A DNA stretch of 57,899 bases, taken from assembly GCF_004571075.1 (NCBI RefSeq), contig NZ_SPQP01000026.1, positions 1-57,899 on the forward strand, written 5' to 3'. The notes beneath the pieces were generated by a model, which was given only the letters and a program-made list of their open reading frames with translations, ran no database searches and was not told the origin of the DNA. Source of the stretch: Blastococcus sp. TF02A-35 (lineage in GTDB: Bacteria > Actinomycetota > Actinomycetes > Mycobacteriales > Geodermatophilaceae). Position numbers and translations under genes: made by a program. Of the stretch, positions 7,612 through 40,394 are shown one piece after another; position 1 is the stretch's first letter; every line of letters starts with the position of its first letter.

Positions 7612-8904
7612 TTAGCCCAGGACGAAGCCGAGGATCAGGTGGGCATTCAGGCCGATGATCAGCGCCGCGACGAGGCAGCCGGCCACCGTCGTCACCCGCC
7701 GGTTCACCCAGCCGCCCATGAGGTCGCGCCGGCTGGTCAGCCACAGCAGCGGCACCAGCGCGAAGGGGATGCCGAAGGAGAGCACCACCTGCGACCACAC
7801 CAGGGCGGTGGTCGGGTCCCCGCCGAGCACGAGCACCGCCAGCGCCGGGACGAGGGTGACCAGCCGCCGGGCCAGCACCGGGATGTGCCGCTTCAGGAAG
7901 CCGGCCATCACGACCTGGCCGGCGTGCGTGCCCACCGACGACGACGCGAAGCCGCTGGCCAGCAGCGCGACGGCGAAGGCCAGGGCCGCGCCGGTGCCGA
8001 GCTGGTCGCCCAGGCCGGCGTGCACGCCCTCCAGGGTGTCGGCGCCGCTGCCGCCGGTGAACAGCTGCGCGGCGATGACCAGCATCGCGGCGTTGACCAG
8101 GCCGGCCAGCCCCATCGCCAGGACGACGTCCAGCCGCTGGGCGCGCAGCAGCCGGCGCCGTCCGCCCTCGGTGCGCCCGGCGGTGACGACGTCGCCGTAG
8201 CGGCCGGGGGTCAGCGCCGAGTGCACGTAGATCACGTGCGGCATGACGGTGGCGCCCAGGATGCCGGTGGCCAGGAGGATGCTCTCCGAGCCCTCGAAGG
8301 AGGGCACCATGCCGCCGGCCACGCCGCCGAGGTCCACGCCGGCGCCGACCAGCGTGTAGCCGAAGCCCAGGCCGATCACGAGCAGCAGCCCGGTGATCAC
8401 CCGCTCGAAGGGCCGGTGCCCGCGGGACTGGGCGGCCAGCAGCACGAAGGCGACGACGGCGGTGATCAGCCCGCCGACGGGCAGCGGCACGCCGAAGAGC
8501 AGGTAGAGGGCCACGGCCCCGCCGACGATCTCGGCGACGTCGGTGGCGATCGCGACCGCCTCGGCCTGGAGCCACAGCACGTAGGTCACCCGCCGGGGGA
8601 GGCGCTCGCGGCAGAGCGTGGCGAGGTCGCGGCCGGTGGCCAGCCCGAGCTTCGCCGTCAGCGTCTGGACCAGCATCGCCATGAGGTTGGCCGCCACGAT
8701 GACCCACAGCAGCGTGTAGCCGAAGGCCGCCCCGCCGGAGAAGTTGGTGGCGAAGTTGCCGGGGTCGACGTAGGCCACCGCGGCGACGAAGGCCGGCCCG
8801 AGCATCGGCCAGATGCGGCGCCTGCCCGCCGGGGGAGCGGCCGGCCGCGGGGCGGCCACGAGCGTCGTCGGCAGCACGGCGGCCTCGGTCTTCGACAGGT
8901 ACAC
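7612..8904 (-). CDS. mntH: Nramp-family divalent metal (Mn2+) transporter
   Basis: A 430-residue membrane protein with about eleven hydrophobic segments. The family's metal-binding motif D-P-G-N is present in helix 1 (Y-V-D-P-G-N-F-A-T-N), and helix 6 has M-P-H-V-I-Y-V-H-S, matching the M-P-H motif. Bacterial members (MntH) import Mn2+ and other divalent metals with protons. The GTG start at 8904 has only a weak GCGAGG site. Downstream on the same strand is the riboswitch and thiamine transporter, with no clear terminator between. Manganese is the usual substrate, but iron cannot be excluded from sequence. Confidence 0.9.
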   Translation of the reverse strand: MYLSKTEAAVLPTTLVAAPRPAAPPAGRRRIWPMLGPAFVAAVAYVDPGNFATNFSGGAAFGYTLLWVIVAANLMAMLVQTLTAKLGLATGRDLATLCRERLPRRVTYVLWLQAEAVAIATDVAEIVGGAVALYLLFGVPLPVGGLITAVVAFVLLAAQSRGHRPFERVITGLLLVIGLGFGYTLVGAGVDLGGVAGGMVPSFEGSESILLATGILGATVMPHVIYVHSALTPGRYGDVVTAGRTEGGRRRLLRAQRLDVVLAMGLAGLVNAAMLVIAAQLFTGGSGADTLEGVHAGLGDQLGTGAALAFAVALLASGFASSSVGTHAGQVVMAGFLKRHIPVLARRLVTLVPALAVLVLGGDPTTALVWSQVVLSFGIPFALVPLLWLTSRRDLMGGWVNRRVTTVAGCLVAALIIGLNAHLILGFVLG

Positions 8905-9111
8905 GGCGGCCTCGCAGGGTGGAGCGGGTGGGCGGTCGCTCCTGTCCTGCCCACGGGGGGTGTCACGCCGGGGCCTAGTCGTGGCCCCCCGGGGCCAAGG
9001 TCAGCCTGGCCTTCCCCCGAGGGGCCTTCATGGCCATTTCGGCCCCGGCGGGTGGACCCGGCGCCCAGTGGGCAGGAACGGTCCGTCCGCCCCCTCGACC
9101 GTGGAGGTCCC

Positions 9112-9918
9112 GTGACCGACGCAGCAGCGCCCCGCCCCCTCGCCCTCGTGACCGGTGCCTCCAGCGGCATCGGCCTGGAGCTGGCCAAGCAGTTCGCCGA
9201 CAACGGCTTCGACCTGGTCGTCGTCGCGGAGGACGACGAGCTCGACGCGGCGAAGCTGCAGCTCCAGCAGCGCGGTGCGGCCGTCTCCGACATCCGGGCC
9301 GACCTCACCGAGCGGGCGGAGGTGGAGAAGGTGGTCGCCGCCGTGCGCGGCGCCGGCCGCCCGCTGGCCGCGGCGGCCCTCAACGCGGGGGTGGGCGTGG
9401 CCGGCCGCTTCAGCGAGACCGACCTGGACGCGGAGCTGGGGATCGTCCAGCTGAACTGCGCCTCGACCGTGCACCTGGCCAAGCGGGTGGTGCAGGACAT
9501 GGTGGCCCGCGACGAGGGCCGGATCCTGTTCACCTCGTCGGTGGCCTCGCAGGCTCCGGAGCCGTTCCAGGCGGTCTACTCCGCGTCGAAGGCCTTCGTG
9601 CAGTTCCTCGCGCTGGGCATCCGCGAGGAGCTGAGCGACACGAACGTCACCGTGACCGCGCTGCTGCCCGGCCCCACCGACACCGAGTTCTTCGACCGGG
9701 CCGATGCCACCGACACCAAGCTCGGCGCCTCGGACAGCAAGGACGACCCGGCGCAGGTCGCCCGGCAGGGCTTCGAAGGGCTGATGAAGGGCGAGGCGTC
9801 GGTGTTCGCCGGCTCGGTGACCAGCAAGCTGATGGGCAAGCTGTCGGCGGTCCTGCCCGACGCGATCGCCGGCAAGAGCCACAAGCCGATGACCGCCCCC
9901 GGGTCGGCGCAGGGCTGA
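9112..9918 (+). CDS. Short-chain dehydrogenase/reductase
   Basis: A 268-residue classical SDR. The NAD(P)-binding motif T-G-A-S-S-G-I-G is at residues 14-21, followed by L-N-A-G, and the catalytic set is S-S (T-S-S-V-A-S) with Y-S-A-S-K. The acidic A-E-D-D-E after the second strand gives no strong sign for NADP over NAD. The substrate is unknown; the sequence resembles the broad DltE/YqjQ-like group. The GTG start follows GGAGG by four to five bases. A GNAT gene starts 16 bases downstream and is probably co-transcribed. Confidence 0.9.
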   Translation: MTDAAAPRPLALVTGASSGIGLELAKQFADNGFDLVVVAEDDELDAAKLQLQQRGAAVSDIRADLTERAEVEKVVAAVRGAGRPLAAAALNAGVGVAGRFSETDLDAELGIVQLNCASTVHLAKRVVQDMVARDEGRILFTSSVASQAPEPFQAVYSASKAFVQFLALGIREELSDTNVTVTALLPGPTDTEFFDRADATDTKLGASDSKDDPAQVARQGFEGLMKGEASVFAGSVTSKLMGKLSAVLPDAIAGKSHKPMTAPGSAQG

Positions 9919-11907: not shown

Positions 11908-12930
11908 TCATGCGGGGTCGTCGGCGAGGCGGACGACCATCTTCCCGGTGTTCCCGCCGCGCAGGAGGTCCAGGAACGTGTCGACGGCGGCGTCCAGGCC
12001 CTCGCGCACGGTCTCCCGCACCACGAGCCGGCCGTCGCGCAGCCAGCCGGAGACCGCCTCGGCGAAGGCCGGCTGCAGGTCGGCGTGGTCGCCGACGATG
12101 AACCCGCGCAGGCTGAGCTTCTTGGTCACCAGCATGAACATGTTCCGCGGCCCGGGGGCGGGCTCGGTGGCGTTGTAGCCGGAGATGGCCCCGCACAGCG
12201 CGGCGCGGCCGAACTCGTTGAACGCGCCGATGGCGGCCTCGAGGTGCTCACCGCCGACGTTGTCGAAGAAGACGTCGATGCCGCCGGGGGCGGCCGTCCG
12301 CAGCTGCTGGGCCACCGGGCCGTCGTGGTAGTCGAACGCGGCGGTGAAGCCGAGCTCCTCGGTCAGCCAGCGCACCTTCTCCGGGGTCCCGGCGCTGCCG
12401 ACGACCGCCGAGGCGCCGCTGAGCCGGGCGAACTGGCCGACGAGGCTGCCCACGGCGCCGGCGGCGCCGGAGACGAAGACCGTGTCGCCCTCCCGGAACT
12501 CCGCCAGCCGGAAGAGGCCGGCCCAGGCGGTGAGGCCCGGCATGCCGAGCACGCCCAGGTGGTAGCTCGGCGGGATGCCGGGCAGCTCCGGCAGCACCCG
12601 CACGTGCCGCGCGTCGAGCACGGCGACGTCCCGCCAGGCGGCGTCGGCCAGGATGAGCGCGCCCTCGGGGACGTCGGGGGAGCGGGACTCGACCACCCGG
12701 CCGACCGCGCCGCCCTTCATGGTCTCGCCGATCTCCCAGGCCGCGGCGTAGGACCTGCCCGCGTTCATCCTCCCCCGCATGTAGGGGTCGACCGACATGA
12801 CGAGCATGCGGACGACGACCTGGCCCTCGGTGGGGTCGGGCCGGTCCAGCTCGACCAGGCGGAAGTCGTCGGGCGCCGGCTCCCCGACGGGGCGGGCGGC
12901 CAGCTGCCATTCACGCGTGTGCACGGTCAC
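11908..12930 (-). CDS. NADP-dependent MDR oxidoreductase (curcumin/alkenal reductase-like)
   Basis: A 340-residue medium-chain reductase without the zinc ligands of alcohol dehydrogenases. Characteristic motifs are S-V-D-P-Y-M-R-G-R-M near residue 50, G-M-P-G-L-T-A-W-A-G and the nucleotide-binding V-S-G-A-A-G-A-V-G-S. This is the pattern of the CurA/YncB and leukotriene-B4 12-hydroxydehydrogenase group, which reduces activated double bonds using NADPH. The GTG start has no good ribosome binding site. It is probably a detoxification enzyme; natural substrate unknown. Confidence 0.88.
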   Translation of the reverse strand: MTVHTREWQLAARPVGEPAPDDFRLVELDRPDPTEGQVVVRMLVMSVDPYMRGRMNAGRSYAAAWEIGETMKGGAVGRVVESRSPDVPEGALILADAAWRDVAVLDARHVRVLPELPGIPPSYHLGVLGMPGLTAWAGLFRLAEFREGDTVFVSGAAGAVGSLVGQFARLSGASAVVGSAGTPEKVRWLTEELGFTAAFDYHDGPVAQQLRTAAPGGIDVFFDNVGGEHLEAAIGAFNEFGRAALCGAISGYNATEPAPGPRNMFMLVTKKLSLRGFIVGDHADLQPAFAEAVSGWLRDGRLVVRETVREGLDAAVDTFLDLLRGGNTGKMVVRLADDPA

Positions 12931-39728: not shown

Positions 39729-39734
39729 TACGGT
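39729..39734 (+). promoter_or_regulatory. Minus-10 element for a leaderless selenoprotein mRNA
   Basis: TACGGT fits the actinobacterial TANNNT hexamer and lies six bases before the ATG at 39741, so transcription would begin on or next to the start codon. No Shine-Dalgarno is present apart from GGGGG directly against the ATG. Confidence 0.5.
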
Positions 39735-39740
39735 CGGGGG

Positions 39741-40394
39741 ATGGACGCCGATCTCCTCGCCCTGCGCTCGGACGAGCGCGCTGCCCTCCTGCTGGTCGGG
39801 CTGCGGGGCGACTGGTAGCCGTACTGCTGCGCCCAGGCGGTCCGCCTGGCCCGGTCCCTCTCCCGCCTCGCCGACGCCGGCACCGAGGTCGTGCTCGCCT
39901 CCGTCGACCCGCCGGAGGTGCAGCTGGCGATGAACCGGACCTGGCACCTCCCCTTCCGCTGGGTGAGCGATCCGGACGGTGAGCGCCTCGCCAAGCCGCT
40001 GGGCGCCTGGGACGAGGACGCGTCGATCTTCCGGCCGGTCGTCGTCGCGGTCGCCCCGGACGGGCGGCAGGTCTTCCGCGAGCTGTCGCGGGACTTCACC
40101 GACCGGACCGACGACGAGCCGGTGCTCGCCGCGGTGGAGCAGCTCGGGCTCGACCCGGTGGCCGCCGCCGGGTGGGAGCCCGAAGGGGTCGAGCCGCACC
40201 CGTCGAAGCGGGCGTTCCGGCCCGCCTCGTTTATCCCCTACTTCCGCGCGATCCGGTTCAACACGATGGCGTTGAGCGAGCGGATGGTCGACGACCGGGA
40301 CCGCGAGCAGCTGGTGGCCGAGAAGGAGATGGCCGAGTCCTTCCTCGCCGCCTTCGACGAGTGGCGCGCCGAGCACCCGCCGGACCACTCCTAG
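39741..40394 (+). CDS. Thioredoxin/peroxiredoxin-like selenoprotein with Sec encoded by TAG
   Basis: A 217-residue frame interrupted only by TAG at codon 26 (39816-39818). The context is L-V-G-L-R-G-D-W-[TAG]-P-Y-C-C-A-Q: in related AhpC/TSA-type proteins this place is the redox Cys of W-C-P-Y/F-C. Codon bias and frame are the same before and after the TAG, and the downstream part is a normal thioredoxin fold (E-V-V-L-A-S-V-D, then R-P-V-V-V-A-V-A-P-D-G). A Cys codon TGC would need two changes to become TAG. A SECIS-like hairpin follows. I therefore read codon 26 as selenocysteine, giving a U-P-Y-C redox centre. From memory, UAG-decoding tRNA-Sec has been reported in Geodermatophilus and Blastococcus. 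Without recoding only a start at 39891 would remain, lacking the active site. Confidence 0.82.
39833..39849 (+). promoter_or_regulatory. SECIS-like hairpin for SelB recruitment
   Basis: CCAGGCG (39833-39839) and CGCCTGG (39843-39849) form a seven-base perfect stem with G-G-U-C at the tip. It begins 14 bases after the TAG. The E. coli fdhF element also has a short stem capped by GGUC about 20 bases after its Sec codon, and G and U of that loop contact SelB. The hairpin lies inside the reading frame, coding Q-A-V-R-L-A. Confidence 0.65.

Follow-up and report, generated by a model that had tools for sequence, protein, structure and literature searches.

The window, the whole stretch of 57,899 nucleotides of Blastococcus sp. 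TF02A-35 analyzed here, is contig C20 of a 3.93-Mb genome assembly (87 contigs, 99.99% complete). Its plus strand carries a gene at positions 39741 to 40394 that we read as encoding a peroxiredoxin-like (AhpC/TSA) selenoprotein and that, by ORF reading, stands alone between opposite-strand genes. The gene opens with an ATG at 39741 and is intact apart from a single in-frame TAG at 39816 to 39818. This TAG is codon 26, at the first position of a predicted W-U-P-Y-C motif (W25-[TAG]-P27-Y28-C29-C30), and is followed by 191 open codons and a TAG stop at 40392 to 40394; read through, the product would have 217 residues, with selenocysteine (Sec) at residue 26. The GC content at third codon positions is 0.92 upstream of the internal TAG and 0.98 downstream. 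An earlier inspection of the letters alone (here, the sequence-only reading) had placed the TAG at the first redox position of the active-site motif and had described the frame and codon bias as unbroken on both sides; both descriptions hold. We assign a probability of about 0.96 to the reading that the gene encodes a UAG-written Sec in a peroxiredoxin-like active site. Without recoding, the ORF with a start codon downstream of the TAG spans 39891 to 40394 (167 amino acids, GTG start) and has no active site, as the sequence-only reading had anticipated for automatic annotation; the active site of the UAG-Sec peroxiredoxin-like enzyme escapes standard ORF calling.

The terminal stop is TAG in 14 of the 28 intact orthologues described below and TGA in the other 14, so UAG still terminates, and since TAG is the last codon of the window gene as well, the internal codon would be recoded by its context rather than through reassignment. 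Upstream of the gene, a likely −10 box (TACGGT, 39729 to 39734, plus strand) ends 6 nt before the ATG. Of the 30 orthologues, 25 have the hexamer TANNNT at −12 or −13, and the remaining five have CATCCT or CATGCT there; the conserved position of the hexamer so close to the start codon suggests a leaderless selenoprotein mRNA.

The GGUC-capped hairpin that had been proposed to follow the TAG is present at 39833 to 39849 on the plus strand (CCAGGC-GGUCC-GCCUGG, a 6-bp stem with the loop GGUCC). It begins 14 nt 3′ of the TAG, with GGUC at 20 nt. Bacterial SECIS hairpins lie directly after the Sec codon and carry a G or GU in the apical loop. The hairpin found here has this placement and this type of loop, which makes it a candidate bacterial SECIS element that SelB may bind. 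The six frames of the window contain 1,135 stop triplets (258 TAG, 859 TGA, and 18 TAA), and the TAG at 39816 is the sole one followed at 16 to 24 nt by a GGTC-capped stem of at least 5 bp; GGTC caps a stem of at least 6 bp at 6 of its 1,230 occurrences in the window. Synonymous divergence (pS) is 0.101 over codons +1 to +11, a threefold drop relative to the codons before (0.325) and after (0.318) them; an RNA signal embedded in coding sequence would be expected to have this effect. The only variation in the hairpin among the 28 intact genes is CGC or CGT at codon +9, which keeps a G-C or G-U pair, and covariation is not demonstrable in a stem with so little variation, all of it from G-C to G-U. 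Folding energies relative to shuffled sequences were unremarkable (z of −0.26 for 48 nt, −1.0 for 38 nt, and +1.72 for 65 nt).

Orthologues of the gene occur in 30 of 112 genomes of the family Geodermatophilaceae, distributed over five genera; codon 26 is TAG in every one of them. TAG is likewise found at all 21 Geodermatophilaceae loci of a named genome collection, which overlaps in part with the 30. By this gene, Blastococcus sp. TBT05-19 and Blastococcus atacamensis are the closest named relatives (93% identity each), in a search of that collection that may omit records very near the window. The alignment proposed by the sequence-only reading thus returned TAG throughout, with no decayed or varied codons at the site, and the orthologues exclude the sequencing error at 39816 to 39818 that it had named as a danger to its interpretation. 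Distant homologues carry Cys at the Sec position, a residue that is partly built into this comparison by the Cys-containing pattern through which some of them were found.

The frame is intact in 28 of the 30 orthologues. The other two, in G028 (locus L039 on contig C14) and G104 (L038 on C79), belong to different genera and have the same single-nucleotide deletion shortly 3′ of the TAG, in a CCC tract at the base of the hairpin; the frame beyond it is still open. This deletion may reflect gene decay, or else a sequencing error at the site of a strong hairpin, and both genes were left out of the codon statistics. In pairwise comparisons of the 28 intact orthologues on a codon alignment, pN/pS was 0.20 across the 22 codons upstream of the TAG and 0.30 from codon +12 to codon +100. 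Between codons +12 and +60 it was 0.33 in frame, against 1.35 and 2.42 when the same stretch was read in the two alternative frames. Both sides of the TAG are therefore under selection as protein in one frame. A lone stop in an otherwise intact gene looks at first like a nonsense mutation or a sequencing error in a decaying gene, and the frame-breaking deletion in two orthologues points the same way, but this explanation is extremely improbable in view of the purifying selection on either side, the recurrence of the same TAG in every orthologue across five genera, and the presence of a tRNA-Sec with the anticodon CUA in each of the 30 genomes. Equally, the GTG-initiated ORF at 39891 admits the possibility that the functional product comes only from this or another internal start, with the upstream part not co-translated. 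Such a product would lack the active site together with two elements of the structure model, strand 15-20 and helix 27-37, and the 22 codons 5′ of the TAG are constrained as protein; we consider it exceedingly unlikely.

Beyond the orthologues, the family search at an E value of ≤0.001 gave matches in 56 of the 112 genomes, 30 with the orthologue and the rest with weak matches only. Two weak matches with an internal stop (G101 and G030) were rejected as other AhpC/TSA-type proteins with the stop near the end of the alignment; two more were also set aside, one of which (G022) re-aligned over its stop-free part only, while the other (G077) gave no re-alignment. Among 394 genomes of the class (E value of ≤1e-8), full-length matches were found in the two family members drawn, and two genomes from outside the family had weak matches of 28 and 31% identity.

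The reading of UAG as Sec calls for a matching tRNA, and the sequence-only reading had proposed searching the genome for selA, selB, selD, and a tRNA-Sec with the anticodon CUA. A full-length tRNA-Sec with that anticodon lies at G000:C26:41312-41403 in the same genome (Rfam RF01852, 65.8 bits), and all three sel genes are present on its contig, selB being cut at the contig end. Within the extracted stretch of this contig (L009), selD occupies 8146 to 9153 on the minus strand, the tRNA-Sec gene lies at 9813, selA starts at 12745 on the plus strand, and selB runs from 14052 to the contig end (389 codons). selA and selD were identified by eye from their translations, and selB also by the SelB family model (273 bits; cut-off, 242). 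In the relatives G011 and G007, selA directly follows the tRNA-Sec gene and selB is complete; G058 also has a full-length selB. Other ORFs lie between the tRNA-Sec gene and selA in the genome studied here (L009:9905-12744). The last few dozen codons of its selB (L009:14052-15219) differ from the SelB of G011 and G007, and the end of this contig may be faulty.

ARAGORN labels the CUA tRNA-Sec genes tRNA-Pyl, both in this genome (L001:1501-1596) and at other loci, so automatic annotation can hide a UAG-Sec system. The label would fit a UAG read by a pyrrolysine tRNA or by a plain amber suppressor instead of by tRNA-Sec. We regard this as very improbable: the RNA matches the Rfam tRNA-Sec model from end to end, its gene shares a contig with selD, selA, and selB and lies directly 5′ of selA in G011 and G007, UAG remains a stop in the window gene itself, and sequence identity between the CUA tRNA-Sec and the UCA tRNA-Sec of the seven family genomes that have only UCA is 84 to 90%.

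A tRNA-Sec was found in 108 of the 112 family genomes, and the 4 without a match are 72 to 82% complete. The anticodon is CUA in 101 of the 108; the other 7, from three genera, have UCA only. The count of 101 is the union of an exact pattern search (75 of 112), ARAGORN loci (22 of 30 with CUA, 14 of them in genomes that the pattern missed), and further regions (12 of 12). The formate dehydrogenase gene of the genome studied here (C13:52822-56184, minus strand) has a TAG in the motif RI-[TAG]-HSATV. This site is TAG at all 30 loci read in CUA genomes, and a GGTC apex lies 18 nt 3′ of the TAG in each of the 30 best family loci; here the stem also varies on both sides with pairing kept (GGTGCCC/GGGTGCC versus GGTCCCC/GGGGACC). 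In three of the seven UCA-only genomes (G070, G072, and G074), the site is TGA. G073, also UCA only, has a TGA within its formate dehydrogenase match at a position that is unconfirmed, and the site was not found in G066, G068, and G069. The peroxiredoxin-like protein has no match at an E value of ≤0.001 in these seven genomes. As read from the sequences, the Sec codon follows the anticodon of the tRNA-Sec. The system is a clean natural case of Sec written as UAG. With TGA in the formate dehydrogenase site of the UCA-tRNA genera and TAG in that of the CUA genomes, the change of anticodon and codon is traceable within one family. A search with PF24696, which we take to be the UGSC family, gave no match in the genome studied here, and none in the controls.

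With the TAG read as Cys, the protein matches the Pfam families AhpC-TSA (E value of 7e-12; 45.8 bits against a cut-off of 26) and Redoxin (4.5e-7). No NCBIfam model reaches its cut-off; the model for SelL-related redox proteins (NF040769) was rejected at 15.9 bits against a curated cut-off of 120. The AlphaFold model (mean pLDDT, 91.9) has a predicted thioredoxin fold, in which residue 26 follows strand 15-20 and immediately precedes helix 27-37. The attacking Cys of thioredoxin folds occupies the same place, between a strand and a helix. The Pfam score and the fold together place the protein in the AhpC/TSA superfamily. Profile and fold searches of the PDB returned mainly peroxiredoxins, such as the thiol peroxidase 2cx3 and Mycobacterium tuberculosis AhpE, at TM-scores to the query of about 0.5, probably as the C-terminal helices 161-211 are left uncovered. 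The profile searches also returned ResA-type thiol-disulfide oxidoreductases, which leaves more than one candidate reaction. From its fold and motif, the enzyme may reduce peroxides or disulfides through Sec26 together with Cys29 or Cys30.

The open frame, conserved TAG, tRNA, sel genes, hairpin, and matching switch of codon and anticodon can all be read directly in the DNA, and known biology suggests how charging, SelB binding, and Sec insertion would proceed. SelA would convert seryl-tRNA-Sec(CUA) to Sec-tRNA-Sec(CUA) with selenophosphate supplied by SelD. SelB would then bring the charged tRNA to the ribosome and bind the GGUC-capped hairpin 3′ of the UAG, and the codon at 39816 to 39818 would be read as Sec instead of being recognized by release factor 1, while UAGs without a hairpin, including the last codon of the gene itself, would still terminate. 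In the enzyme, attack on the substrate would fall to Sec26 as the peroxidatic residue, with resolution by Cys29 or Cys30.

One genome of the family, G058, may hold a second Sec codon. It has a CUA tRNA-Sec beside selD, selA, and selB, and the orthologue of the window gene was not found there in the family search. A second tRNA-Sec, with the anticodon UCA, lies on its contig C17 (1173 to 1263; 81.8 bits). This RNA is only 64 to 71% identical to 12 other tRNA-Sec of the family, with CUA and UCA anticodons, and so looks foreign; those 12 are at least 80% identical to each other. An AhpD-like ORF lies about 0.3 kb away in the same stretch (L072:1169-2154). It has 192 codons, a lower GC content (0.60), and one TGA, in RCFY-[TGA]-MESH, with a hairpin 3′ of the TGA (ACGCAGA-GUU-UCUGCGU). 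With the TGA read as Cys, its product matches TIGR01926, a peroxidase-related enzyme, at 1.7e-32. TIGR01926 and NF041238 are listed among CxxU selenoproteins (PMC13188914). The next best match to the AhpD-like protein in the 112 family genomes is 40% identical and has no stop; no match was found in plasmids or, at 1e-30, in the 394 class genomes, a result in which G058 itself was not seen. Elsewhere on the 69-kb contig, the GC content is mostly host-like (0.70 to 0.79). Transposase-like ORFs, recognized by eye, flank the stretch with the UCA tRNA-Sec and the AhpD-like ORF, so it may be the product of a chimeric assembly.

We suggest tentatively, and rate as possible but doubtful, that G058 uses two Sec codons, UAG in formate dehydrogenase and UGA in the AhpD-like protein (motif CFYU, with its own UCA tRNA-Sec in an IS-rich stretch), with one SelB serving both; one SelB match in this genome exceeds the model cut-off. 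If so, gene transfer can give a second Sec codon back to a lineage, and whether two Sec codes can coexist within a cell becomes testable. No report of two Sec codons in one bacterium was found in titles and abstract openings, among which most subscription journals are not represented.

The use of UAG for Sec in this family is not new in kind. A CUA tRNA-Sec is described in three Geodermatophilaceae genomes (PMC5330540), in agreement with the UAG-decoding tRNA-Sec that the sequence-only reading had named for Geodermatophilus and Blastococcus. The same source refers to Mukai 2016 for UAG-Sec selenoproteins of the formate dehydrogenase and UGSC types and adds an AhpC from Blastococcus saxobsidens DD2 with a Sec-TAG followed by a hairpin (PMC5330540). 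UAG-Sec in the family was thus published in 2016 and an AhpC selenoprotein with UAG in 2017, and the novelty attached to the locus by the sequence-only reading was overstated. Elsewhere, UAG, UAA, and sense codons are described as used for Sec in some species (PMC10778597), and UAG and UGC/UGU are named as Sec codons (PMC8124441). The DD2 AhpC is most likely the orthologue of the window gene, as judged by way of strain DSM 44509 of B. saxobsidens. The orthologue in that strain (L105, G008:C18:52419-53057) has the TAG and 76% identity to the window protein, which matches nothing else in that genome at an E value of ≤0.001.

The window gene shares with the DD2 AhpC its family, AhpC type, UAG-Sec, hairpin, and CUA tRNA-Sec; the DD2 report concerns one genome, whereas the window comes from another Blastococcus-like species and has 30 orthologues here (PMC5330540). 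The Geodermatophilaceae UAG-Sec formate dehydrogenase has the same tRNA type, codon, and family, but the enzyme differs (PMC5330540, PMC8124441, PMC10778597). UGA-Sec peroxiredoxin-like selenoproteins include AhpC/TSA members with Sec in the redox motif, as here, but those described use UGA in a UxxS motif, in contrast to UAG and UxxC in the window protein (PMC13188914). Cys-type redoxins with the motif RGDWCPYC occur in Rubrobacteraceae MAGs (L108 to L111) and in an uncultured actinobacterium (L117), at 27 to 31% identity overall, and the alignments of L117 and L108 with the window protein reach its C-terminal part. All five carry Cys at the Sec position, and they possess an N-terminal segment absent from the UAG-Sec versions at the chosen start codon. 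Several UAG-Sec versions have earlier in-frame starts.
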